From Embleya scabrispora DSM 41855 (GTDB lineage Bacteria > Actinomycetota > Actinomycetes > Streptomycetales > Streptomycetaceae): a stretch of DNA of 64,000 bases. The notes below the pieces were generated by a model that saw only the letters and a list, made by a program, of their open reading frames with translations, did no database searches and was not told the DNA's origin. This document shows positions 50,909 through 64,000 of the stretch, piece by piece. Every line of letters begins with the position of its first letter. Within the stretch, counting starts at the first letter, position 1. The DNA is taken from contig NZ_KB889596.1 of the NCBI RefSeq assembly GCF_000372745.1, positions 124,001 to 188,000 of the forward strand, written 5' to 3'. The position numbers and the translations under genes were made by a program.

Positions 50909-52363
50909 CTACACCAGCGCGTCGATCGGGTCAGCCGGCAGCACGCCCGCCGCGACCGCCTCGTTCAGCCATTCCGGGAACTCCAGGAGGAGTTGGTCGT
51001 ACAGTTCCGCGTCCGCGAGCAGCCTCGGGTCCTGTCCGGCGTGGAAGAAGCCCGCGTTGTCGACCACGCGCTGCTCCGGCACGGTCAGTTCGTCCAGCTT
51101 GCGAAGGAAGTCGAAGCCCTTGGCCTCGGGGTCGCCGAAGCCGATGAACTGCCAGAAGATCGGCAGCCCGGCCACCTCGCACAGCGCCTTCGCGGCGGCG
51201 GGGCGGCTGGTCGGCGCGCCGTCGGTCTGGAAGATCACCAGCGCCGGGTCGGCGCTGCCGGACGCACGGTAGTGCTCGACCACCTTGGCGATCGCCGAGT
51301 GGTAGTTGGTGCGGCCCATGTGCCCGTAGGAACCGTGCAGTTCCTCGATCCGACCCACGTGGTTGCCGGGATCGAGGTCGGCGACGCCGTCGATGTCCGT
51401 GGAGAAGAACACCAGCGGTACGACGGCCTCGCCGAGCTGCGCGGACAGCGCGAGCGTCTGGTCCGCGAGGTGCTGGACGGTGCCGTCCTTGTAGTAGGAG
51501 CGCATCGACCCGGAGCGGTCCAGGACGAGGTAGACCGCGACGCTGCGGCCGGCGAGGCCGCACTTGGCCACGGCCGCCGCGGCGGTCTCCGCACGGGCCC
51601 CGAGGCCGGGCGCGACGTCTTCGACCCGAGCGGGCGGCACCACGGCGACGGTGGTCGGAACCGGGGCGGCCTCGGCGACCACGAACGGCTCCGCCTCCAC
51701 CTCGATCGCCGGCTCCGGCGCCTCGGCGGCCGGCTCGACCACGGTCGCGGTCTCGTCCTGCTCGGCCTCGGCGGGTGTCGCGATCGCCTGTGCCGGTACG
51801 GGAATCGAGGTCGGCGCCGACCCGGAGGCGTCGTGCTCCGCCCGGGACTCGGGAATGACGACCGGCTCCGGGATGACGACCGGCTCGGGAATGACGACCG
51901 GCTCGGACAGAACGGCCGGCTCCGCATCGGCCGGCTCCGAAAGGGCGGCCTGCTCCGGCACCACCGGCTCCGGCACCACCACCTGCTCCGGCAGCACCGC
52001 CGGCTCGGGGACGGCGACCGGTTCGACGACGGCGACCGCCTCCTCCACCGCGACCGGCTTCTCGACCGTGTCCGGCTTCTCGACCGTGTCCGGCTCGTCG
52101 ACCGCGACCGGCTCCGGCGCGACCTCCGTCGCCGGCGCACTCTCCGGCGCCGGGCTCACCTCCGGTTCGTCACGCGTCGTCGCCTCGGCGCGTGGCTCCG
52201 GTTCCGATTCGGCGACCGGCTCGGGCGCGCCGACCGGGGACTCGGTCGGCGCGATCCTGAGGTCGGTCGGTGCGGCGGCCACGTCGCTCGTCTCGGGTGT
52301 CTCCGCCGCCTCGCGGGACGGCCGCGAACGAAAGACGTTGCGCAGCAGACTCCTCAAACCCAT
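50909..52363 (-). CDS. VWA-domain protein, TerF/TerY-like
   Basis: This 484-residue protein has a C-terminal von Willebrand A domain with the MIDAS motif DRSGSMRSY, the Thr in GRTNYHSA and the Asp in FQTDGAPT. That domain is typical of TerF/TerY-type tellurium-resistance-linked proteins. The N-terminal half (residues 20-245) is a long Glu/Pro/Val/Ala-rich tract with EPVVIPEPVVIPEPVVIPES repeats, probably disordered. No ter genes are adjacent. ATG 52363 begins MGLRSLLRNVFRSR. Confidence 0.85.
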   Translation of the reverse strand: MGLRSLLRNVFRSRPSREAAETPETSDVAAAPTDLRIAPTESPVGAPEPVAESEPEPRAEATTRDEPEVSPAPESAPATEVAPEPVAVDEPDTVEKPDTVEKPVAVEEAVAVVEPVAVPEPAVLPEQVVVPEPVVPEQAALSEPADAEPAVLSEPVVIPEPVVIPEPVVIPESRAEHDASGSAPTSIPVPAQAIATPAEAEQDETATVVEPAAEAPEPAIEVEAEPFVVAEAAPVPTTVAVVPPARVEDVAPGLGARAETAAAAVAKCGLAGRSVAVYLVLDRSGSMRSYYKDGTVQHLADQTLALSAQLGEAVVPLVFFSTDIDGVADLDPGNHVGRIEELHGSYGHMGRTNYHSAIAKVVEHYRASGSADPALVIFQTDGAPTSRPAAAKALCEVAGLPIFWQFIGFGDPEAKGFDFLRKLDELTVPEQRVVDNAGFFHAGQDPRLLADAELYDQLLLEFPEWLNEAVAAGVLPADPIDALV

Positions 52364-52525: not shown

Positions 52526-53857
52526 TCACACCCCCGCGAGCAGTACGAACGCCGCGTCCACCGCGGCGCACGCGGCCGAGACGTCGTCGTCGGTGAGCGC
52601 CGCGGACACGAACCAGCATGCCGAACCGACCGCGTTGACGTGTACTCCGCGCTCCAACAGGGCGTGTCGGAACAGCGCGTAGCGCGCGTCGTCGCTCGCC
52701 GCCAGGTCCCGGTAGTTGCGCGGCGCCGTGCCGTCGGCCGAGAAGACCACCTGGAACATCGCCCCGACCCCCTGCACGGCACACGGAATCGCCCTGTCCC
52801 TGGCGGCCCGTCGGATCGCCTCCATCACCCGGTTCCCGGCCGCGTCGATGCGCGCGATCACCGCCGGATCGGCGAGTTCGCCCAGCGTAACCAGCGCGCC
52901 GGCCGCACACAGCGGCGAACCGTTGTACGTACCACCGTGTTTGACCCGGTTCGCACCGATCTCCTCCATGATGTCGCGGCGTCCGGCGAACGCCGCGATG
53001 GGCAGGCCGCCGCCCAACGCCTTCGCGTACACGGCAAGATCCGGAAGCACACCGAACAGCCCCTGGGCACCGCCCGGTCCGGTCCGAAAGCCGGTGCACA
53101 CCTCGTCGAAGATCAGCACGATCCCGCGTCTGGTGCACTCCTCGCGCAGCGTATCCAGGTAGCCGGGCACCGGCATGGTGCACGCGTTGTTGGCCACGAT
53201 GGGCTCGCAGATCACCGCGGCCAGTTCGCCGCGATGCGCGTCCAGGATCTCGCGCAGCACCACCGCGTCGTTCCACGGACAGATCACCACGTCTGCGACC
53301 ACGCCGGCCGGCACCCCCGGGGAGTGCGGGCGCGCGTGCGGCCGGGCGTACGGTCCGGCCTCGGCAGCGGTGGGCCGGTTCGAAACCGCGAGCGAGTCCG
53401 CCCACCCGTGGTAATGGCCCTCGAACTTGAGCACCTTGTCCCGGCCGGTGAAGCCGCGCGCGGCCCGAACCGCACCCTGAATCGCCTCCGATCCGGAGTT
53501 GGCGAACCGGACCAGGTCGGCGCACGGGATCATCCTCCCCATGGTTTCCGCCAGTTCGATCTCCGCGACGGTGCCCGCGCCGAACATCGTGCCGCTCGCC
53601 ATGACGTCCGCCACCGCCGCGCCGATCGCCGGATTGGCGTGCCCGATCACCGCGCAGCCGTACGAAATCAGGTAGTCGACATACTCGTTCCCGTCCACGT
53701 CCCAAATGTGCGCGTCCTTGCCGCGCGCGATATAGAGCGGATAGGGAAATGGACCGGTGCTCGTCACGCGTGCGGAGGAGGCGGTCCCGCCCGCCAGCGA
53801 ACGTCGGGCCCGATCGAAAAGGACCCGACTGGTTTCGGTCGACTCGGCCGAGATCAC
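52526..53857 (-). CDS. PLP-dependent aminotransferase, glutamate-1-semialdehyde-type
   Basis: This class III aminotransferase of about 443 residues has [39 protein letters not shown] (PLP phosphate), [14 protein letters not shown] (Asp) and the lysine motif [14 protein letters not shown]. The GSA-aminotransferase branch also occurs in antibiotic pathways, where it aminates keto sugars or cyclitols. GTG 53857 is preferred for GAAGGTGG upstream; a GTG at 53884 has none. It is divergent from the SDR gene and opens the cyclitol-like cluster. hemL itself is normally in a heme operon, and no heme genes are here. Confidence 0.87.
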
Positions 53858-53970
53858 GGAATACGCCACCTTCGCTCTTGACACCCGTCATGGTCACTAC
53901 GCAGGGTTTTTCTCCGTACCGTCGCGGTGAATGCGAACGGACCGGCCGTATCAATTCCGAGGGGTCACCC

Positions 53971-54717
53971 ATGATCGAGAAGGTCGCCGTCGTCACCGGA
54001 GCGGGCAGCGGCGTGGGCCGCGCGTGCGCACTCGCCCTGATCGATCGGGGTTGGTCGGTCGCTCTGGCCGGTCGACGCGAGGTCAACCTGGAGGAGACCG
54101 CCGCGCTGGCCGGAGATCGCGCCCGCTTCGCCCTGCCGGTGCCCGCCGACATCACCGACCCCGACGCGGTCGACCGACTGTTCGCCACCGTCGTGGAGCG
54201 GTTCGGCCGGCTCGACCTGCTCTTCAACAACGCCGCCGACACGATGCCCTACGTGCCCACCGAGGACGTCGAACTCGGGGACTGGCGCCGGGTGCTCGAC
54301 TCGATCGCCACCGGCGGATTCCTGTGCGCCCGGGCCGCGTTCCGGATCATGAAGGAGCAATCTCCGCGCGGCGGCCGGATCATCAACAACGGCGCCCCCT
54401 CGGCGCACGTCCCACGCCCGGATTCGATCGCCTTCACCGCCGCCAAGCACGCCGTCACCGGGCTGACCAGGTCGCTGTCCCTGGACGGTCGGCCGCACGA
54501 CATCGCCTGCGGGCAGATCGACATCGGCAACGTCACGCCGATCGACCGGCCGCAGCCGGCCGTCCGGCAGGCCGACGGTTCGCTGCGGGTCGAGCCCACC
54601 ATGGACGTCGGACACGTCGCGGACATGGTGGTCGCGATGGCCGCGTTGCCGATCGGGGTGAACGTCCAGTCGGTGACCGTCATCCCCAGTGCGATGCCGT
54701 ATGTCGGCCGCGGCTGA
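53971..54717 (+). CDS. SDR-family protein lacking the catalytic Ser and Tyr
   Basis: This 248-residue short-chain dehydrogenase-like protein keeps the cofactor motif [14 protein letters not shown] (TGxxxGxG) and FNNAAD. The catalytic segment reads [14 protein letters not shown] then [14 protein letters not shown]. In active SDRs the positions of Ala142 and Phe155 are Ser and Tyr, 13 residues apart; Lys159 is kept. Both exchanges are plain in the DNA. The enzyme may bind cofactor without redox activity, or use a different mechanism. ATG 53971 has GAGGGG upstream. Confidence 0.88.
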
Positions 54718-54718
54718 C

Positions 54719-55281
54719 CCGGACCCGACGACCTCGCCCGATCGGGGTGCGGATCCGCGCCCCGCCGCGATGCCGAACTCGCGACCGGCTCCGGCCAGAT
54801 ACGCCTCGATCCGGGTTCCGCCCGCCAATCGGCCGTACAGTTCCCACGCGATCATCCGATGCAGCCCGTCCAGGTGCACGATTCCCTGCCGCACCGCCAG
54901 ACCCGCGTAGTCGACTGTCTCCACCGCGCGGGTGCACAGGTACAACGGCGTCATCGGCGCGTCCCGCTGCCACGCGAGTTTGGCCGCGCAGACCGGATTG
55001 CTGTGCGTGTACCGCCCGCGGGTCGAGCGCAGCCGGCGCACCGCCGCGGCCAGGGTGAGTCCGCGCGGCGGCACCAGTTCGAAAGCGCCGCCCTCGCCCA
55101 GGTGCCACGGCAGGATGATGCCCAGCAGCGCCGCCCGATCCAGTTCGATCCGCAGCCATCCACCGGGCAACGCGTCCGCGAGGCGCAGCAATTCCTCGCC
55201 CTCGGCGTTGCTGTTCTCCGGATGGCCGCCGTCGACCGGGTGGTCGTGCCGGAATCGGTCGAAGACGACGTCGAACGGCAC
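54719..55281 (-). CDS. DUF6309-like protein (end uncertain)
   Basis: The protein-like part reads VPFDVVFDRFRHDHPVDGGH then LLGIILPWHLGEGGAFELVP and SNPVCAAKLAWQRDAPMTPL. The ParB-like QGIVHLDGLHRMIAWELYGRL follows. This matches my recollection of the DUF6309 family, seen in streptomycete biosynthetic clusters. GTG 55281 has AAGG about 10 nt upstream. After EAYLAGAGREF the frame stays open through the whole SDR gene to 53965, so the true stop is unclear; coordinates give only the supported part. A frameshift to the stop at 54680 is possible. Confidence 0.55.
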
Positions 55282-55403
55282 GGTTTCGAGAACCTTCAAG
55301 AATCGGATCCATTCGAGTGATGGGCAGGTGGGCGGCCCGGCGGTGGACGACCACCGAACGACCGGACGGAGCGGGGGGAACAGGCGGAACAGGCGGCCGG
55401 CCC

Positions 55404-56189
55404 TCAGCCCGAGTAGCGCGTGAAGTGGCGTTCCGCGAAGAGTTCGGGCCAGTGTCCACGATCGAGGTCCAGTTCCCGGGCCCGACCGAGCACGTGTCGC
55501 CAGTACGGCTTCACCGGTGGCCAGCGGGTGCCGCACTGCCCGTACGAGCCGTCCACCATGTAGCGCGGCCTTCCGCCGAAGGCCGGGCCCGGGCGGCGGG
55601 CGTGGAACAGGGCCGAGTGCACGAGCACCGTGGAGCCGGGCGGCAGCTCGTCGATCAGCACCTCGCCGGGCAGTTCGCGGCATCCCAGATGGGCCCTCGC
55701 GTCCTTGTCCGCGACCTCGCGGTGCGAGCCCGGGAGTACCGCCAATCCACCGACGGAGGCGTCCAGTCCGCCGAGGTAGTGCAGCGCGTGGATCATCGTG
55801 TACGTACGATCGCGCTGCGGGGCCTGTTCGTAGTCGTGGTGCCATGCCTTGCCGTCCGCACCCGCCGGGCGCCGGTCGCTGTGCAGGTGGTGGAACACGA
55901 AGTCGGTGCCCATCAGCGCCCCGACCAGAGCCAACAGCGGCGGGTGGGCCGCCAGTTCGCCGTGCGCGGCGAGTTCGATCTCGACCACCGGCGGCGGACC
56001 CGGTCGGCTCGGATCCACACAGGCGGCGATCGCTCGCTCGCGCGATCCGGAGTCCACCCAGTGGTCCACCTCGGCTTCGAGCCGTGATACCAGATCGTCG
56101 GGCAGGAAGCCCGGTAACAACAGGTATCCGCACTCGGTGAATCCGTCGATCCGACTTCCGTCGACCGCCCTGGTCGGCATTTTCGGCAT
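55404..56189 (-). CDS. Phytanoyl-CoA-dioxygenase-type Fe(II)/2-oxoglutarate oxygenase
   Basis: This 261-residue PhyH-fold oxygenase has iron ligands H117-x-D119 in AWHHDYEQAP and distal His196 in HSALFHARRPG. The conserved Arg near 198-199 binds 2-oxoglutarate. RTYTMIHALHYLGGLDASVGGLAVLPGSH is the typical core strand. It may hydroxylate or epoxidise the cyclitol product, as VldW-type oxygenases do for validamycin. ATG 56189 follows AGGGGGAACATCC. It lies 122 bp upstream of the DUF6309-like gene on the same strand. Confidence 0.88.
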   Translation of the reverse strand: MPKMPTRAVDGSRIDGFTECGYLLLPGFLPDDLVSRLEAEVDHWVDSGSRERAIAACVDPSRPGPPPVVEIELAAHGELAAHPPLLALVGALMGTDFVFHHLHSDRRPAGADGKAWHHDYEQAPQRDRTYTMIHALHYLGGLDASVGGLAVLPGSHREVADKDARAHLGCRELPGEVLIDELPPGSTVLVHSALFHARRPGPAFGGRPRYMVDGSYGQCGTRWPPVKPYWRHVLGRARELDLDRGHWPELFAERHFTRYSG

Positions 56190-56432
56190 ATGGATGTTCC
56201 CCCTGTCGGCGGTGCCCGGCAGCCGGCCCACCGAAAGCGGAATACCGCTTCGCATTTCCGGGTGGAAAGCGGGTGGCCGACGGGAAAACGGAGCGTGATC
56301 GAGCCGATACGAGAAATATCCATCGGCGCGGAGATCCATGCGCACACTCGACAGATTGGCCGGATCGTTTCCCCGGGCGGCCGGACCGACCACGCATCGC
56401 GCGCGGTGGCCGAAAACGGTGCGCCGGCCACC

Positions 56433-56855
56433 TCAGCCCATAAAGGTCAGCCGCACCGTCCGGTCCGGGTTGTCCCGATTGGTGTCCACCATCGTGACCG
56501 ACTGCCACGTCCCCAGCGCGAGTTCGCCGCCGATCACCGGCAGCGTCGCGTGCGGCGGGACCAGTGCGGGCAGCACGTGATCGCGCCCGTGTCCGGGACT
56601 GCCGTGCCGATGCCGCCACCGGTCGTCGGCCGGCAGCAGATCCGCCAACAACGCGAGCAGGTCGTCGTCACTGCCGGCCCCGGTCTCCAACACCGCCACC
56701 CCGGCGGTGGCGTGCGGCACGAACACATTGAGCAGTCCGTCCCGCCCGCCGGCCACCTCCCGCAGGAACCGCGCACACATACCGCTCAGGTCGTACACCC
56801 GCTCCCGCCGCCCGGTACTGACCTCGAAAACCCGCGACACGACAGACTCACTCAT
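56433..56855 (-). CDS. YjbQ/UPF0047 family protein
   Basis: This 140-residue protein reads LLNVFVPHATAGVAVLETGAGSDDDLLALL, then HGSPGHGRDHVLPALVPPHATLPVIGGELALGTWQSVTMVD. These are the HATAG and L-G-T-W-Q motifs of the YjbQ family. Some members can replace thiamine-phosphate synthase. It is probably not part of the adjacent biosynthetic cluster. ATG 56855 begins MSESVVSRVFEVST. Confidence 0.9.
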   Translation of the reverse strand: MSESVVSRVFEVSTGRRERVYDLSGMCARFLREVAGGRDGLLNVFVPHATAGVAVLETGAGSDDDLLALLADLLPADDRWRHRHGSPGHGRDHVLPALVPPHATLPVIGGELALGTWQSVTMVDTNRDNPDRTVRLTFMG

Positions 56856-56920
56856 CCCGCCATGCTCGCGCAGCCGCACCCCGGTTCCGCACCCTCGACA
56901 CGGTCGCGCCGAGGAATGCT

Positions 56921-56976
56921 TTGCTTTCGACCGAATGCGTACGGACAATATGGAGCAGTACTTACCTGTCGGTAAG
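56921..56976 (+). promoter_or_regulatory. HxlR promoter and palindromic operator
   Basis: TTGCTT (56921-56926) and CAATAT (56946-56951) are possible -35/-10 elements. The perfect inverted repeat CTTACC-TGTC-GGTAAG (56961-56976) lies just past the likely start, well placed for HxlR autorepression. Confidence 0.55.
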
Positions 56977-57024
56977 GATGGATCGGCGGGGATCGACAGG
57001 GCTCGCCAGGAACGGGAGACGCGC

Positions 57025-57393
57025 ATGGCTCGGCGCTATCAGTGCGGCCTGGACGCCGCCATGGATGTCATCGGCGGCAAGTGGAAGGCATTGATCCTTT
57101 GGGCGCTGCACGTCGAGGAGCGGCGCTTCGGCGAGTTGCGCCGGGCGGTGCCCGGGATCAGCGAGAAGATGCTGATCCAGCAGTTGCGCGAGATGGAGGC
57201 CCGGGGGATCGTGCACCGCGAGGTGTTTCGCGAGGTCCCGCCCAAGGTGGTCTACTCGCTGACCCCGCTGGGGCAGTCGCTCAACGAGGCGCTGCTGCCG
57301 CTGGGTGTGTGGGGGCACGAAAACGTCGAGCAGATCATCGAGACGGCGCCCGCGACGGCCGGGGCGCAGGACCCCGCACAACCCGCCGCGTAG
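57025..57393 (+). CDS. HxlR-family transcriptional regulator
   Basis: This winged-helix regulator of 122 residues starts MARRYQCGLDAAMDVIGGKW and shows RFGELRRAVPGISEKMLIQQLREMEARGIVHREVF then PPKVVYSLTPLGQSL. The conserved Cys (C7) is the redox- or aldehyde-sensing residue of many HxlR proteins. ATG 57025 has GGGAG upstream; longer in-frame starts exist but would place the operator inside the gene. It precedes the cyclase gene on the same strand by 187 bp and may regulate it. Confidence 0.85.
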   Translation: MARRYQCGLDAAMDVIGGKWKALILWALHVEERRFGELRRAVPGISEKMLIQQLREMEARGIVHREVFREVPPKVVYSLTPLGQSLNEALLPLGVWGHENVEQIIETAPATAGAQDPAQPAA

Positions 57394-57580
57394 GCCGTTT
57401 CCGGGCGAAGTTTTCGGCGTCGGCGAATGTCGGGAATAGCGTCGGGCGGTCTGCTATAACCGCGCGGACACACTCTGGGTGAGTCCTTGTTGACTTTTCG
57501 TAGCGCGCGCCGTAATTATTTCGGCAGCGAATATCCGGATTGTCTGCGACGTCTTCGTTGAGCCGCCGGGGTGTGAATAT

Positions 57581-58771
57581 ATGACCGAATACGTCCGAGT
57601 GTCCGAACAACTGGCGCTGCCACGCGGGCCGGTCGATCCGATCATGGCCTACGCCCGGCGGCTCGACACGTATCCGGTCCACGTGTGCCTCGACGAGGCC
57701 ACCGCGCTCGCGCGGCTGTGCGCCGAGATCGACGGTCGACGGGTCGCCCTGATCACGGACGACACCGTGTACACACTGCACGCGCGCCGGCTCGCCGAAC
57801 GGCTGACCGCGTCCGGACTGGACGTGGTCCACACCTCGTTCCCGGCCGGCGAGGCGAGCAAGAGCCTGCGCACCGCGAGCACCCTGCTGGACTGGCTGGC
57901 CGGCACCTCGCTCGCCCGCCGCGACATCCTGCTCGCGGTCGGCGGTGGCGTGGTGATGGACACGGTCGGCTGGGTGGCCAGCGCGTACATGCGCGGCATC
58001 CCGTACATCAACGTGCCCACGACCCTGCTCGCCCATGTGGACGCCGCGCTCGGCGGCAAGGTGGCCATCGACCATCCGTCCGCCAAGAACCTGATCGGCG
58101 CGTTCTACCAACCCAGGGCGGTGGTCTCGAACGTCGGGTACCTGAGCACCCAGGACGGTCGCGGATTGCGCGCCGGGCTCGCCGAGGCGATCAAGACCGG
58201 GATCATCGCCTCCCCGGAGTTGTTCGAGTCGATCGAGCGCCGGCATGCGGCCATCCTGGCCGTCGAACCCGTGCCCACCGCCGCCCTCGTGCATGCCTCC
58301 AGCGTGCTCAAGTGCCGGTTGATCGCCCGCGACCCCTATGAGCGCGACCTTCGCCGGCCACTGAACTTCGGGCACACCATCGGCCACGCCGTGGAGACCG
58401 CGACCGGCTACGGTCCGGTCCTGCACGGCGAGGCGGTCGCATTCGGGATGGCCTGCGCGGCCCGGATCGCCGAACGACGCGGGCTGCTCGACCCGGCCCT
58501 GTGCGCGCGGGTGAGCGGGCTGCTCGACCGGGTGCGATTGCCCACCACGCTGGCCGGATTACCCGCCCGGCTCGACCCGGCGACCACCGTCGAGGCACTC
58601 GGCCAGATCCGCAAGATCCGGGACGGCCGGCTGCGGTTCGTGCTGCCCACCGCGCTCGGCGAGACGGTGATCACCGACGACGTGAGCGACGAGGAGATCC
58701 ACGCCGCGCTCGTGGTCCGCCCCACCGCCGAGGTCCCGTTCGCACGCACCCACGGAGGCACCGATGACTGA
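57581..58771 (+). CDS. Dehydroquinate-synthase-like sugar phosphate cyclase
   Basis: This 396-residue NAD- and metal-dependent cyclase has GGGV (121-124), PTTLLAHVDAALGGK (146-160), Asn170, Glu202 and Lys205 (AEAIKTG), Lys244, and N262-x-GHTIGH with His265 and His269. LHGEAV carries His282. This set is that of 3-dehydroquinate or 2-deoxy-scyllo-inosose-type synthases. 2-epi-5-epi-valiolone synthases usually have a changed HT-x-S-P segment instead. No other aromatic-pathway gene is near, so it probably makes a cyclitol for a specialised product. Substrate and product are unknown. The downstream PfkB gene overlaps it by 8 bp. Confidence 0.88.
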   Translation: MTEYVRVSEQLALPRGPVDPIMAYARRLDTYPVHVCLDEATALARLCAEIDGRRVALITDDTVYTLHARRLAERLTASGLDVVHTSFPAGEASKSLRTASTLLDWLAGTSLARRDILLAVGGGVVMDTVGWVASAYMRGIPYINVPTTLLAHVDAALGGKVAIDHPSAKNLIGAFYQPRAVVSNVGYLSTQDGRGLRAGLAEAIKTGIIASPELFESIERRHAAILAVEPVPTAALVHASSVLKCRLIARDPYERDLRRPLNFGHTIGHAVETATGYGPVLHGEAVAFGMACAARIAERRGLLDPALCARVSGLLDRVRLPTTLAGLPARLDPATTVEALGQIRKIRDGRLRFVLPTALGETVITDDVSDEEIHAALVVRPTAEVPFARTHGGTDD

Positions 58772-59657
58772 GCTGGATGTGTTCGTGGTCGGCGGAGTCG
58801 GCGTGGACATCATCGTCCGGGTGCCCGAACTACCCCTGCCGATAAGCGACTTCAAGGTGCCACCGATCCGGCAGTACGTCGCGCACACCGGCAACGGGGT
58901 GGCGCTGGGCTGTCGGGCACTGGGCCTGCGCACCCACTTCGCGGCCGTGCTCGGCGCCGACCCGGAGGCGGACTTCGTGCTCGCCCACTACGCCGAACAG
59001 GGCCTGTCCTTCGCGCATGTCTCCCACCCCAGCGGCACCCCGCGCAGCGTCAACCTGGTCGGCCCGGACGGCGAACGACTCTCACTGCACGACAGCCGCC
59101 TGCCCGCGGATCTGGTCGTCGACCCCGAGCTGTACCGCCCCGCGCTCGCCCGCACCCGGCACGCCCACGTGTCGATAGGCGGCTGGTCCCGCCCCGCACT
59201 GGCCGACGCGATCGAGGCCGGCGTGTCCACCTCGACCGACCTGCACGGCTGGGACGGCAAGGATCCCGCCCGGGCGGACTTCGCGTACGGGGCCGACCTG
59301 GTGTTCACCTCCACGAACCGGCTCGGCGACCGGGTCGAGGAGGCCGCGCGGGACGTGCTCGCCCGGGGCCGGGCCGAGATCGTGGTCGCGATGGCGGGCG
59401 GTCGGGGCAGCTACCTGGTGCTGCCGGACCAGCCGATGCGGCACGTGCCGGCGCTGGCCATGCGGGTCGACGAGGTGGTGGACACCAACGGCGCCGGGGA
59501 CAGCTACGTCTCGGGCTTCCTGTACGCCTACCTGGCCGGCCGCGACTGGGCGGACTGCGCCGCCGCCGGCACCCGGGCGGGCGCGCACGCCGTACGGACC
59601 GCGGGCACGCATACGTCGTTCATCACGGCGAAAGAGTTGGACCGTGCGTTCTCCTGA
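58764..59657 (+). CDS. PfkB-family carbohydrate/cyclitol kinase
   Basis: This 297-residue ribokinase-fold kinase starts ELDVFVVGGVGVDIIVRVPE. DEVVDTNGAGDSYVSGFLYAY holds the catalytic base Asp246 in GAGD. The gene overlaps the cyclase by 8 bp and is surely cotranscribed and coupled. It probably phosphorylates the cyclised product or its reduced form, as ValC does in validamycin biosynthesis, but by a different kinase fold. Its 3' end overlaps the convergent nucleotidyltransferase by 35 bp. Confidence 0.9.
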   Translation: MTELDVFVVGGVGVDIIVRVPELPLPISDFKVPPIRQYVAHTGNGVALGCRALGLRTHFAAVLGADPEADFVLAHYAEQGLSFAHVSHPSGTPRSVNLVGPDGERLSLHDSRLPADLVVDPELYRPALARTRHAHVSIGGWSRPALADAIEAGVSTSTDLHGWDGKDPARADFAYGADLVFTSTNRLGDRVEEAARDVLARGRAEIVVAMAGGRGSYLVLPDQPMRHVPALAMRVDEVVDTNGAGDSYVSGFLYAYLAGRDWADCAAAGTRAGAHAVRTAGTHTSFITAKELDRAFS

Positions 59658-60777
59658 CGGGGTCGGGAAACGGGTCGGGGGATGCCTCGGGCGGCGGGTC
59701 GGCGGGCGCGGCCGACGCGAGAATGCCGCGCGGGGTGACGATGGCGTCCCGAACGGTACTTCCGGCGGGGACCGTGGCGCCCGGCAGCACCACCGAGCGC
59801 AGTACGGTCGCGCCCGACTCGATCCGGCAGCCGGGGTGCACGACGCTGCGCTCCACCCGCGCCCCCGGCGGTATCCCGGCGCCCAGCAGACTTCCGGCGA
59901 CGTACTTCGGGAAGCCGTCCGACAGACCCGCCAGAGTGCGCGGGAGCGCCTCGGCCGGGATCGGGTGCGGTCGGTCCGGCAACCGCAGTTGCTCGGTGCG
60001 GTAGCGCTCGACCGTGCCGATGTCGGCCCAGTAGTCGGGCACCCGATACGCCGTGACCCGGCGGCCCCGGGCGATCATCGCGGGCAGCACGTCGCGGCTG
60101 ATGTCGTGCTGCCAGCCGTCCTCGCCGAGCGCGGCCAACTCGGCCAGGATTTCGCGCAGCGCGTCGATCCGGAACACGCAGAACGCGGTGAACACCAGGT
60201 CCGACGTCGGTCGCGCGGGCTTTTCGACCAGGGCCCGGACCCGAAGGTCGGCATCGGTCTCGACCATCCCGAACAGGTGCACGTAGCGACGCTCGATGCG
60301 CTGCACGCCGATCGTGCAGTCGGCGTCCGCCGCCCGGTGTGCGGCAACCAGCGGCGCGTAGTCGAACACGTAGACGTGATCCGCGTGTTGCACCAACAGG
60401 TCGCTCGCGCCCGGGGCGAACAGGTACTCCGCGTTGGCGAGCAGTGCGTCGGCGGTGCCGCGTTCGGCGGGGCGGGCGGGCAGGATCGCGCCCGGGCCGC
60501 TTCGGGCCAGAGCGTCGTGCGGACCGAAGTGCAGTCGGGTGCCCGGGCGTTCGTCCCAGTGCGTGACCAGGTGGCGGACCAGGTCGGATTCCCGGTGCTG
60601 GGAGAGCAGGACCAGTTCGGGCAGGCCGGAGCGGACCGCGTTGGCCACGCTGAAGTCCACCAGCCGACAGGACGCGGCATACGGCACCAGGGGTTTGCAC
60701 ACATCGGCGGTGAGCGGGCCCATGCGCTCGCCCAGACCACCCGCGAGCAGGGCGCCGCGTACTCCGTCGAGCGTCAC
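59623..60777 (-). CDS. GlgC-like nucleotidyltransferase
   Basis: This 384-residue nucleotidyltransferase has the signature GALLAGGLGERMGPLTADVCKPLVP, the Mg-binding LVQHADHVYVFD and YWADIGTVERYR. Left-handed beta-helix hexapeptide repeats follow in the C-terminal part (VHPGCRIESGATVLRSVVLPGATV). ADP-glucose pyrophosphorylase is the closest family. In validamycin biosynthesis a GlgC-like enzyme (ValB) makes GDP-valienol, so this protein may activate a cyclitol phosphate. GTG 60777 overlaps the stop of the upstream isomerase gene. Confidence 0.88.
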   Translation of the reverse strand: MTLDGVRGALLAGGLGERMGPLTADVCKPLVPYAASCRLVDFSVANAVRSGLPELVLLSQHRESDLVRHLVTHWDERPGTRLHFGPHDALARSGPGAILPARPAERGTADALLANAEYLFAPGASDLLVQHADHVYVFDYAPLVAAHRAADADCTIGVQRIERRYVHLFGMVETDADLRVRALVEKPARPTSDLVFTAFCVFRIDALREILAELAALGEDGWQHDISRDVLPAMIARGRRVTAYRVPDYWADIGTVERYRTEQLRLPDRPHPIPAEALPRTLAGLSDGFPKYVAGSLLGAGIPPGARVERSVVHPGCRIESGATVLRSVVLPGATVPAGSTVRDAIVTPRGILASAAPADPPPEASPDPFPDPVRRTHGPTLSP

Positions 60778-61763
60778 CAGGTCCGCCCCTGCGCCTGCCC
60801 GGCGGGAACCAACGTGCGCAGCAGCGCGAGCGACGTGGCGATGCCCTGCTCCGTGGGCAGTAGGGCGTCCTCGTGTTCCACGTAGATCACTCCCCGGTAG
60901 TCGTCGTCGAGCAGCGCGGCCACGATGGCCGGCCATGGCAGTTCGCCGGCGCCGAGCGCGCGGAAGCGGATCGCCGGGCCGGGTCCATAACGCGACCAGC
61001 CCGCGCCGCGTGGCGCTTCGGCACCGGACCAGCGCTGGAGGTCCTTCGCGTGCACGGCCGCGAGCCGCTCGCCCCAGCCGCGCACGGCCGCCACCGGATC
61101 GTGCCCGGTCGCGGCGAGGTTGGCCGGGTCGAGACACAGACGAACATCGCTCACCGCCGAGAGCAGTGCTCTCGCACTGGCCGGGTCGTACGCGACCTGC
61201 TTCGGGTGCGGCTCGAACACGACCCGCACGCCCAGTGCGTCCGCGAGGTCCAGGATCGGCCGCGCGGCGAGCGCCCACGCGTGCACGTTGTCCTGCCAAC
61301 TCACCGCGCTTCCCGACCAGGACAACCAGCGCGCCAGATCGGGCACGCCCAGCATCAACCGCACCAGCGGCGCGCCCAGACCGGCGGCCAGCCGCACCGT
61401 GTCGAGCGCGGCGCGCAGCCCGTGGGCCCGCTTGGCCTCGGCGGTCCCGGCGAGCACCGGATCGGTGTGCGGCCCATGTGGTCCCAGCACCAACTGGGTG
61501 TCCCGGCTGTTGCTCACACAGCCCACCTCGACCCCGGCCGCCGCGCACCGCGCACGCACCTCGCGATGCAGCCCGGGATCGGCGTGCCGCCCGCGCTCCA
61601 CCAGCGCGAAGTGGCCGTCCGCGGGCAGGTCCACCACGCCCGCTCCCGCGTCCCGAGCCACCCGCAACGCCCCGCTCAGACCCGCGGGCGCCAAGGCGGC
61701 CAGACACAACCCGAGCCGAATCGGCGCCCGCCCGGCCGCCCGTTCGTTCGGTTGCCCGGTCAT
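60774..61763 (-). CDS. TIM-barrel sugar-phosphate isomerase/epimerase family protein
   Basis: This 329-residue AP-endonuclease-2-type TIM barrel has metal-ligand strands GVRVVFEPHPKQ (Glu), DVRLCLDPANL (Asp), LAAVHAKDLQ (His) and GVIYVEHED (Glu). These enzymes isomerise or epimerise sugars and inosose-like cyclitols (IolE/IolH relatives). In this cluster it could epimerise or tautomerise a keto-cyclitol. Its stop overlaps the nucleotidyltransferase start (GTGA at 60774-60777). ATG 61763 has GAGGGGG upstream. Confidence 0.87.
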   Translation of the reverse strand: MTGQPNERAAGRAPIRLGLCLAALAPAGLSGALRVARDAGAGVVDLPADGHFALVERGRHADPGLHREVRARCAAAGVEVGCVSNSRDTQLVLGPHGPHTDPVLAGTAEAKRAHGLRAALDTVRLAAGLGAPLVRLMLGVPDLARWLSWSGSAVSWQDNVHAWALAARPILDLADALGVRVVFEPHPKQVAYDPASARALLSAVSDVRLCLDPANLAATGHDPVAAVRGWGERLAAVHAKDLQRWSGAEAPRGAGWSRYGPGPAIRFRALGAGELPWPAIVAALLDDDYRGVIYVEHEDALLPTEQGIATSLALLRTLVPAGQAQGRTW

Positions 61764-61798
61764 CGGCGATCCCCCTCGCTCGGCTGCGCCTCGGCACG

Positions 61799-62728
61799 TC
61801 AGAGGTTGCGGATATGTGCCCAACTCTCGGGCGGTGAACCCTGGTTCGCAAGCAACGCGGCATATATCGCGGCCACCGGATCGGCGATCACGGTGGGCGG
61901 TTCGGCCGCGCCGAGCTCGGTGACGATCCGTCGGCTCAACTCGGCGGCGTACGGCGGACACCCGCGGAACACGCCCCCGTTGAGCACGGCCCGCCACGTC
62001 CCGGTCAGCCCGGCCGCGTCCCGGGCGGCGCGCACACCCGTGACCAACTCGTCTAGGCCGCCTCGCACCACCTCGCCCGCCACCGCGTCACCCGCCTGCC
62101 AAGCCACGCACACCTCGGGGGCGAGTGCGGCCACCGCGGCCTTGGGAAACGGCCCGGCGGCCAGCCGACGGGCGAGTTCGCGCGGACCCGAGGCGGCGAA
62201 CAGCGTGGTCGGCCGCCCGCGCCCGTCCGCCCCGCGCACCGCGGCCCGCAGGCCCGCCTCGCCGAGCGCGTACGCGCTGCCCTCGTCGCTGCCCAGATAT
62301 TCGCACCCGCCGATCACGACGGGTGGTCCCGCGTCCGGTCCGGCACTCGCCACGCAGGCCGAGCCGGTACCGGACACCACCACGACGCCGCGCCCGGACA
62401 GCGGCGGCGCCAGGAGCAGCGGCGGAACGTCGCCGGAGATCACGAGTCGACCCCGAAAGCCCCGTTCGCGCGCGATCGCGGCCAGCCGGTCGATCGCCCC
62501 CGGCGCGGTGTCCATGGTGATCGTCGAACTCGCGAACCAGCCGGTCGACACACCGCCCAGGTCCGAGGCGATCCGGGAGAGCAGTCGGACCAGCGTCTCC
62601 TCGGCCGCCGGTCCGGCCGACGCGGGGTTCACCGACTCCCGGGTGTACCGGATCGTGTCGAGCACCATGGCCGTGGTGCGCGTGCCGCCGGCGTCGATCG
62701 CCCAGTATCCGCCGACCCGGTACCCCAC
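61799..62728 (-). CDS. BadF/NAGK-type kinase
   Basis: This 309-residue ASKHA kinase has phosphate-1 motif WAIDAGGTRTTAMVLD and phosphate-2 VVVSGTGSACVASAG. It resembles N-acetylglucosamine kinase and the BadF/BadG ATPases. It may phosphorylate a cyclitol or amino sugar. It starts at GTG 62728 (GGAGG upstream) and lies 35 bp ahead of the isomerase on the same strand. With two kinases in the cluster, one may prepare the substrate for the nucleotidyltransferase. Confidence 0.85.
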   Translation of the reverse strand: MGYRVGGYWAIDAGGTRTTAMVLDTIRYTRESVNPASAGPAAEETLVRLLSRIASDLGGVSTGWFASSTITMDTAPGAIDRLAAIARERGFRGRLVISGDVPPLLLAPPLSGRGVVVVSGTGSACVASAGPDAGPPVVIGGCEYLGSDEGSAYALGEAGLRAAVRGADGRGRPTTLFAASGPRELARRLAAGPFPKAAVAALAPEVCVAWQAGDAVAGEVVRGGLDELVTGVRAARDAAGLTGTWRAVLNGGVFRGCPPYAAELSRRIVTELGAAEPPTVIADPVAAIYAALLANQGSPPESWAHIRNL

Positions 62729-62861
62729 AGTCGAAAGCCTCCGCGGTCCGTCGAAATCCGATGTTCCGGCTCACGCTACCGGTGCGGGAGGCCGGCCGAG
62801 GACGGTGAGGGCGCAGTACGGTGGACGACACTCTGGGTCACCCGATACGGACGGAGCGTCG

Positions 62862-64000
62862 ATGCGGCACGGCGGCGGTGTGCTCGGGCTGGTGGCTCCG
62901 GCGACGAGTTGGGGGCTGTTCTGGGGTGGCTGGGCCGCGCTGATCCCCACGCTCAAGGACGAACTCGCGCTGGACGACCGGCAACTGGGCCTGGCGCTGT
63001 TCGCGGTTCCGGTCGCGGCGGTACCCGCGATGTTGCTCACCGGGCCGCTCGCCCGGCGACTCGGGCCGCGCACGCTGCCGTTGGTGACCGCCGCGTTCGC
63101 GCTGGGCACCCTCGCCGTCGCGATGGCCGGATCCCGATGGACGTTCGCCGCCGCACTGCTCCTGATCGGCGCGGCCAGCGGCGCGATCGAGGTGGCGCTG
63201 AACGCCACCACGGCCGCACGCGAGGCGCTCACCGGCGAGCGCCTGTTCAACAAGGTCCAGGCGGCCACCCCGCTGGCGATGGTGCTCGCCGCCCCGGCGG
63301 TCGGCCTGGCCCTGCATCTGGGTGCGTCCGCGCGGGCGATCCTGGTGGTGATCGCCGTGCTGGTCGCGCTCAGCGCGGTCCTGGCGATCGATCGGCGCCG
63401 GTGGCAGGAGCAGGATCCCGGGCCGGCCGCTCGGACCGACCGCGCGCACGGCCGGCTGCTGTTCGCCCTGCTCGTGGTCGGCGCGGTCGGCGGCACGGTG
63501 CTGCTGATGGAGAACACCGTCGAGCAGTGGGGCGCGATCCATCTGACGGACGACCTCGGCGCGGGTTCCTTCCTCGCCGCGTGCGGGCCGGCCGCCTACA
63601 TGGCGGGCCTGTCCGCCGGTCGCATGCTCGCCCAGTGGCGCGGCGAACGGGTCGGCGACCGTGCGCTGGTGCTCGGCGGCGGCGTGTTGGGTGGGCTCGG
63701 GCTCGCCCTCGCGGCGGCGGCCTGGTCCACCGCGAGCACGCTCGCCGGGTTCGCGCTCGCCGGCGTCGGGTTGGCCCCGGTCGTCCCGACACTGCTCGCG
63801 GCGACCGGACGCGCGGTCGGCCCGAAGCGTCGCCCACAGGCGATCTCGCTGGTCACCACGGTGTCCTATGCGGGCTTCCTGGGTGCTCCGCCACTGGTCG
63901 GCACGTTGGCCGGGCACCTGGGTCTGGGCACCGTCCTGGGCATCGTCGCGCTGTGCGGCGTCGTGGTGGTGACGGGCAGTCAGTCGCTGCGGTTGCTGCC
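62862..64000 (+). CDS. MFS transporter, cut by window edge
   Basis: The reading frame from ATG 62862 (GGAG upstream) is open to the window end, giving about 379 residues without a stop. Hydrophobic helices include VLGLVAPATSWGLFWGGWAAL, MLLTGPLARRLGPRTLPLV and LLFALLVVGAVGGTVLLM. SAGRMLAQWRGERVGDRALV is the second-half MFS loop. It is likely the exporter of the cluster's product or a substrate importer. It is divergent from the BadF-type kinase. Confidence 0.87.
   Translation, partial: MRHGGGVLGLVAPATSWGLFWGGWAALIPTLKDELALDDRQLGLALFAVPVAAVPAMLLTGPLARRLGPRTLPLVTAAFALGTLAVAMAGSRWTFAAALLLIGAASGAIEVALNATTAAREALTGERLFNKVQAATPLAMVLAAPAVGLALHLGASARAILVVIAVLVALSAVLAIDRRRWQEQDPGPAARTDRAHGRLLFALLVVGAVGGTVLLMENTVEQWGAIHLTDDLGAGSFLAACGPAAYMAGLSAGRMLAQWRGERVGDRALVLGGGVLGGLGLALAAAAWSTASTLAGFALAGVGLAPVVPTLLAATGRAVGPKRRPQAISLVTTVSYAGFLGAPPLVGTLAGHLGLGTVLGIVALCGVVVVTGSQSLRLL

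Follow-up and report, generated by a model that had tools for sequence, protein, structure and literature searches.

We analyzed a 64,000-nucleotide stretch of the genome of Embleya scabrispora DSM 41855 (assembly GCF_000372745.1), hereafter the window, which comprises bases 124001-188000 of the 225,440-base contig NZ_KB889596.1 in a genome of 11.39 Mb. Embleya is a genus within Streptomycetaceae (PMC13152386). Near the right end of the window begins a gene cluster that probably directs the synthesis of a validoxylamine-type pseudo-disaccharide, that is, two C7 cyclitols joined through C-N, and that combines a validamycin-type back end with a largely non-orthologous front end. The observations behind this reading are the gene content, the conserved gene order, the homology of the proteins, the retained contact residues of the pseudoglycosyltransferase (psGT), and an exchange of modules with validamycin.

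A preliminary description of the window had remarked that no glycosyltransferase was visible and that one might lie past 64000. Reading was continued to the contig end, with window numbering kept beyond 64000 (contig position = window number + 124000), and the psGT gene indeed starts at 65272. The cluster extends from 57581 to 69201, about 5 kb beyond the window end. All gene types named in that description were confirmed by Pfam. Among the literature matches listed, no paper describes this cluster type; most subscription papers lie outside the reach of the search.

Gene content and distribution of the cluster

Ten genes, listed below, make up the core of the cluster. Gene starts, like the gene lists of all other loci, come from our own gene caller.

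57581..58771, + strand: sugar phosphate cyclase of the dehydroquinate synthase (DHQS) lineage, 396 aa (CYC), proposed to fill the role of ValA; Pfam DHQ_synthase and DHQS_C
58764..59657, + strand: PfkB-family kinase resembling the acarbose 7-kinases (PfkB), overlapping CYC by 8 nt; PDB matches
59623..60777, - strand: GlgC-like nucleotidyltransferase (NDT), counterpart of ValB/VldB; Pfam NTP_transferase, NCBIfam glgC-like below cut-off
60774..61763, - strand: AP_endonuc_2 TIM barrel (TIM), proposed cyclitol 2-epimerase in the role of ValD; Pfam
61799..62728, - strand: BadF/NagK-like sugar kinase (BadF), proposed cyclitol 7-kinase in the role of ValC; Pfam BcrAD_BadFG
62862..64274, + strand: predicted major facilitator superfamily exporter (MFS), crossing the window end at 64000; Pfam MFS_1
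64271-65272, + strand: RmlD-like protein (RmlD); Pfam
65272-66708, + strand: psGT, a GT20 protein of 478 aa; PDB match to VldE
66701-68224, + strand: class III aminotransferase (AT2); Pfam
68221-69201, + strand: zinc-type dehydrogenase (ZnADH); Pfam ADH_N

Gene ends and starts overlap between neighbors from MFS to ZnADH, between CYC and PfkB, and between TIM and NDT, where the GTG start of NDT (read from the sequence) forms a GTGA overlap with the TIM stop. Three transcription units are therefore likely.

The psGT matched VldE at 1.8e-204 in the PDB search and is 70% identical to it in the alignment. All 18 VldE residues checked, which contact the donor, the acceptor phosphate or the guanine (contact list of PMC3441724), are identical in the window psGT. 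Across ten loci of the same type (hereafter the new type), the sole change is T366S, in G017 and in L008 (Actinoallomurus iriomotensis); the psGT of G385, a genome with a different cluster, has 2 of the 18 changed. The best named match is the protein of Embleya hyalina (L006), at 89%.

Two loci, Streptomyces hygroscopicus NBRC 13472 (L009) and G377, served as validamycin-type references. RmlD, psGT, AT2 and ZnADH are 62%, 69%, 75% and 54% identical to their counterparts in L009, and the gene order is the same. Judged by sequence, the operon 3' of MFS is thus the counterpart of validamycin valKLMN, with RmlD corresponding to ValK and ZnADH to ValN by gene position. The groups valABCD and valKLMN are named in PMC3424136, in which a reference title presents ValD as an epimerase of the vicinal oxygen chelate (VOC) superfamily. 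Within the valABCD set, a near counterpart is apparent only for the nucleotidyltransferase (NDT is 52-53% identical to those of the validamycin-type loci); cyclase, kinase and epimerase belong to other lineages, and the acarbose-kinase-like PfkB is an addition to the set. The front ends of L009 and G377 consist of a 2-epi-5-epi-valiolone synthase (EEVS), a nucleotidyltransferase, a ROK kinase and a VOC protein of glyoxalase fold; both loci also carry a GT2 gene, and the G377 cyclase matches ValA (4p53) at 1e-234. Searches that covered the 101-kb part of the contig and the other new-type stretches, but not the remainder of the genome, gave no match to VOC, ROK or GT2. The new-type stretches examined contain no EEVS gene, and CYC, TIM and BadF stand there instead.

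At E ≤ 1e-80, the psGT was detected in 13 of 394 same-family genomes and, in a phylum-wide sample, in 1 of 396, which was the own genome. The new type is present in 11 of the 394 genomes, the own genome included (G000, G004, G020, G031, G017, G068, G073, G086, G101, G119, G190); L006 and L007, apparently the same records as G020 and G031, were counted once. The remaining two psGT genomes are G377, of validamycin type, and G385, with a different EEVS cluster. The ten-gene core is contiguous in 8 of the 11, among them G004, where BadF is in two pieces. Many core genes are in pieces in G073, G017 has nine of the ten (MFS was not seen), and in G031 the core is split over contigs, with the cyclase on a different one. 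A. iriomotensis carries 8 of the 10 in a different order, PfkB and MFS not being seen within 10 kb. The MFS family also occurs in nine other loci, including G385 at 33%. The recurrence of the ten-gene arrangement is more than chance. The region had been described as having no recognized relative; both the valKLMN counterpart downstream and the arrangement in 11 of 394 same-family genomes, with its variant order in Actinoallomurus, show otherwise.

Scattering of the genes in relatives, raised in the same description, was not seen, as the genes stay together; the exception is G109, in which CYC, TIM, BadF and RmlD are present without the other core genes (38 kb examined). The front end is thus able to travel without psGT, accompanied by RmlD. 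In G109 (L078:17404 to L079:6846) this subset adjoins a GMC oxidoreductase, a TreT-like glycosyltransferase and a HAD phosphatase, and the locus possibly belongs to a different cyclitol glycoside pathway sharing this front end. A GMC oxidoreductase, as in G109, and a luciferase-like monooxygenase also adjoin the cluster in G101 (L037:8748-11080) and Actinoallomurus (L008:1518-3886); they look like optional tailoring genes. In a plasmid collection, 79 records match the psGT, all at <60% identity; 17 of the 20 listed are annotated as trehalose-6-phosphate synthase and 3 are unannotated.

Exchange of back ends with the validamycin type

We compared ten new-type loci with the validamycin type, leaving out of the identity ranges and back-end trees L010 (26%, far from psGT) and the back-end genes of G073, which are broken into pieces. 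In the front end, the cyclases were 35-40% identical and the nucleotidyltransferases 47-53%. In the back end, identities were 69-78% for psGT, 70-85% for AT2, 59-71% for RmlD and 47-65% for ZnADH.

G017 joins the two types. Its cyclase is 73% identical to that of the window and 35% to the validamycin type, so its front end is of the new type. Its RmlD, psGT, AT2 and ZnADH are 69-71%, 78%, 84-85% and 63-65% identical to the validamycin type, compared with 66%, 72%, 77% and 59% to the window. In trees of these genes, from which G031 was omitted (its psGT contig is 6 kb), G017 forms a clade with validamycin with support of 99/99 for psGT, 100/100 for AT2, 100/100 for ZnADH and 85/93 for RmlD. When nine new-type rows are held in a single clade, the approximately unbiased (AU) test rejects the arrangement for psGT (p 0.000135), AT2 (p 0.020) and ZnADH (p 0.030); these p values are somewhat optimistic, because the identities were known before the test was chosen. 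The constraint covered nine rows, the tenth, L008, being left on the other side, where it stood or served as root. Each tree is rooted on a single distant row, and the direction of the swap is not fixed by them. Given this grouping of G017, a single back end appears to be served by two different front ends.

The cyclase and the proposed pathway

The preliminary description had proposed nucleoside diphosphate-cyclitol chemistry like that of validamycin, but with other types of kinase and cyclase, and the gene content bears this out, at the level of inference that genes permit. The same level applies to all substrates and products given here, those of CYC included. In the pathway that we propose, CYC would convert sedoheptulose 7-phosphate to a valiolone-type C7 ketone, with 2-epi-valiolone favored over 2-epi-5-epi-valiolone; CYC is perhaps of the 2-epi-valiolone synthase (EVS) kind. 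TIM would epimerize C2, BadF would phosphorylate O7, and RmlD/ValK and ZnADH/ValN would dehydrate and reduce. AT2/ValM would aminate one branch to give validamine 7-phosphate, and NDT would turn the other into a GDP-cyclitol. The VldE-like psGT would then join GDP-cyclitol and validamine 7-phosphate, and MFS would export the product. PfkB would act as an acarbose-kinase-like 7-kinase, perhaps in self-protection.

Searched against the PDB, PfkB matches Mak1 at 3.6e-78 (residues 1-295 of 297) and the acarbose 7(IV)-phosphotransferase at 2.2e-56. Its likeness to the acarbose kinase fits a 7-hydroxymethyl cyclitol. Sugar kinases are nearest to BadF (N-acetylmuramate/GlcNAc kinase, 4.4e-13; hexokinase, 8.3e-10). 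In TIM, E184, D212, H238 and E296, which we take to be the metal ligands of ketose epimerases, are invariant in 11 of 11 sequences. Structure models support the predicted folds and leave the substrates unsettled.

The cyclase sequences are DHQS-like. Residue numbers are those of Aspergillus DHQS, with alignment positions set by motif in 3okf. K250, E260, R264, N268, H271, H275 and H287 are kept in 12 of 12 cluster cyclases and 12 of 12 DHQS rows, and the DHQS set kept in all 12 cluster cyclases includes K152 and K197. The EEVS rows have M250, D268 and P275 in 7 of 7, a combination found in 0 of 12 cluster cyclases; the desmethyl-4-deoxygadusol synthase (DDGS) row has M, A and P at these positions. 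The 2-deoxy-scyllo-inosose synthase (DOIS) BtrC has, by eye, G and E at the R264 and N268 positions, where the cluster cyclases keep R and N in 12 of 12. Relative to DHQS, the cluster cyclases change GGKT to GGKV and DKK to I-R-K, and in L008 an E replaces K356. In a quick tree, 13 cluster cyclases form one clade (97) outside 33 DHQS/DOIS rows (Shimodaira-Hasegawa-like approximate likelihood ratio test [SH-aLRT] 89), and a branch of 100 divides them from EEVS/DDGS.

CYC is 34% identical to the genome's own AroB. The own genome contains two PF01761 matches only, AroB on contig C104 and CYC, with no EEVS elsewhere. No intermediates between CYC and AroB were found among 296 class genomes, where scores fall from 672 to 241 bits, and in a sample of 394 class genomes searched at E ≤ 1e-78 the cyclase appeared in the own genome and G109 only. 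A separate housekeeping AroB is present in 10 of the 11 new-type genomes (12 of 13 examined; partial in G073) and in G109. EEVS was not found in 8 of the 11; G119 and G190 carry one elsewhere in the genome and G086 a fragment. The EEVS-like protein of G190 (L071) has T and Q at the K152 and K197 positions and, by its sequence, is possibly inactive or bears sequencing errors.

A 2-epi-valiolone synthase was reportedly described by Asamizu in 2012 from Actinosynnema mirum and Stigmatella aurantiaca. The clade of confirmed EVS would otherwise be called putative DHQS (PMC5133447), so there is precedent for a DHQS-like protein acting on sedoheptulose 7-phosphate. We infer this substrate rather than 3-deoxy-D-arabino-heptulosonate 7-phosphate (DAHP) for CYC because PfkB resembles the acarbose kinase, the back end appears interchangeable with that of validamycin, and the core shows no enzyme that would reduce a carboxylate. 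We tentatively suggest, with rather less than even confidence, that a DHQS-lineage cyclase acting on sedoheptulose 7-phosphate constitutes a second, independently evolved route to the C7 ring of validamycin-type antibiotics, that this front end is the older partner of the VldE/ValL coupling machinery, and that the validamycin cluster arose when an EEVS set took its place. Such a cyclase may be an EVS for which the surrounding genes supply the pathway, or a cyclase of yet another type, and the antifungal core of validamycin may have a second natural route.

Somewhat more doubtful is that CYC makes the ValA product, 2-epi-5-epi-valiolone, by convergence, with TIM and BadF simply taking over the steps of ValD and ValC, one for one. 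The enzyme types match valABCD one to one, and the back end appears exchangeable with that of validamycin, both of which would fit this reading. However, K250M, N268D and H275P, present in 7 of 7 EEVS rows, occur in none of the 12 cluster cyclases, and CYC is deeply separated from EEVS in the tree.

Several observations weigh against the proposed pathway, and those on the cyclase would suit a true dehydroquinate synthase whose product, or dehydroshikimate, gives rise to a carboxylated, deoxygenated pseudo-sugar. CYC scores 321 bits against NCBIfam aroB, above the cut-off of 305, and all DHQS signature residues (K250, R264, N268, H275), some of which presumably bind the carboxylate of DAHP, are kept in 12 of 12 cluster cyclases. 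Nearest to the predicted structure of CYC are DHQS structures (Z 40.1, compared with 37.1 for ValA). No housekeeping AroB was found in G190 by domain or protein search (the assembly is 88% complete), so CYC might supply dehydroquinate there. We nevertheless regard a true dehydroquinate synthase as quite improbable, given the separate AroB in the other new-type genomes and G109, the lack of a carboxylate reductase in the core, the closeness of psGT, aminotransferase and PfkB to enzymes for 7-hydroxymethyl cyclitols, and the place of CYC outside the sampled DHQS (branch SH-aLRT 89) with I-R-K for DKK and GGKV for GGKT.

The other opposing points concern the remaining genes. The TIM model is nearest to SCO6571 (Z 29.6), a protein of unassigned function, followed by a keto-glucal hydratase at Z 28.7, the isomerase Art22 at Z 25.9 and ketose 3-epimerases at Z ~24-25, and from this model TIM may alternatively have a hydratase role. 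The acarbose operon has the order acbM-L-N-O-C (PMC7682106), and at the place expected for the 2-epimerase AcbO in this order, G385 has an AP_endonuc_2 protein to which TIM is matched weakly (hhalign probability 42, E 0.00026). A conserved, dedicated phosphatase is missing from the ten-gene core. For RmlD, the AU test did not reject a single new-type clade (p 0.127). PfkB and MFS, unseen in L008, and MFS, unseen in G017, are not strictly coupled to the rest. Separately, an acb-like TIM epimerase was considered as the direct ancestor of TIM and set aside, the match being weak only.

Neighboring genes and comparison with known systems

The preliminary description had treated 52526-64000 as a single cluster. 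Its left part holds four genes outside the cluster and two between:

52526..53884, - strand: class III aminotransferase, GSAM-like (aminotransferase 1), outside the cluster; Pfam
53971..54717, + strand: short-chain dehydrogenase/reductase (SDR), outside the cluster; Pfam
~54781..55296, - strand: DUF6309-domain protein, outside the cluster; Pfam
55404..56183, - strand: PhyH-type oxygenase, outside the cluster; Pfam
56433-56855: UPF0047 protein
57025-57393: HxlR protein

The segment 52526-56183 is a unit separate from the cluster. That its four genes are cyclitol tailoring enzymes of one large cluster is very improbable: they are adjacent to the core here, and a broken remnant of aminotransferase 1, the only form of it in other new-type loci, lies at the equivalent place in the same-genus genomes G004 and G020, but the same arrangement, aminotransferase 1(-), SDR(+), DUF6309(-), PhyH(-), recurs in L118, L119 and L120 without CYC or psGT, PhyH and DUF6309 lie side by side in each of the 10 DUF6309 loci examined, and the other new-type stretches examined yielded no SDR, DUF6309 or PhyH gene. 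In the other seven DUF6309 loci, the class III aminotransferase nearby is a different one (34-38% to AT2), with an SDR at 59-64% in four and an MFS at 31-34% in five.

UPF0047 and HxlR genes adjoin the cluster in G004 and G020; in G031, the third other genome of the genus, the psGT contig is too short to show them. Outside the genus, neither had a match at E ≤ 1e-5 in new-type loci. L119 additionally has an HxlR at 43%, and family clustering grouped a 35% HxlR of the different cluster in G385 with that of the window. At the left border, 50909-52363 encodes a TerF-like vWA protein whose long N-terminal part is rich in Pro, Glu and Val. Past the window, an aromatic amino acid lyase, a large type I polyketide synthase and an AMP-ligase (73502-88857) form a neighboring biosynthetic cluster.

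EEVS has been described as the enzyme through which natural products with pseudosugars enter their biosynthesis (PMC4426668), acarbose and validamycin A being among its derived products (PMC5133447), and a 2025 survey of ValL homologues reports neighboring cyclases similar to valA (PMC12041759). The clusters described here form a recurring validamycin-like group with no EEVS gene in the cluster. Since CYC exceeds the NCBIfam AroB cut-off, it would be labeled AroB by automatic annotation, and clusters of this kind may escape notice. At stake is whether a DHQS active site can make a C7 cyclitol; a pathway could then also be assigned to 2-epi-valiolone, which in 2016 was regarded as a putative precursor of uncharacterized metabolites (PMC5133447). 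Interchangeable front ends would also be parts for engineering trehalase and glycosidase inhibitors.

Among known systems, validamycin (L009, G377) is alike in the order of RmlD, psGT, aminotransferase and ZnADH (54-75%) and in its nucleotidyltransferase (52-53%). It differs in having EEVS, a ROK kinase (ValC), VOC (ValD) and a GT2 glucosyltransferase (ValG), whereas the window has CYC, TIM, BadF and PfkB. Acarbose shares the PfkB of the acarbose 7-kinase kind and a pathway through GDP-cyclitol and a psGT (PMC9200736), but its cyclase, AcbC, is an EEVS, and its GDP-valienol donor is joined to a maltose that bears an amino-deoxyhexose rather than to another C7 cyclitol (PMC9200736, PMC7081202). 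EVS resembles CYC in its DHQS-like sequence in a secondary-metabolite setting (PMC5133447). AroB shares the fold and catalytic residues of CYC and differs in its separate clade, its 34% identity, the DKK and GGKT motifs changed in CYC, and the cluster setting of CYC. The G385 psGT cluster is related through PfkB (49%), psGT (45%) and NDT (49%), in contrast to its EEVS cyclase and its ROK-ZnADH-SDR-TIM-HAD-EEVS genes in acb-like order. That cluster (L044/L045), with EEVS, an AcbK-like PfkB, a trehalose-phosphatase-like protein and a TreT-like glycosyltransferase, is neither plainly of validamycin nor of acarbose type. Set beside these systems, the Embleya cluster appears by its sequences to encode a pathway of validamycin type whose front end is a different one that recurs across genomes.

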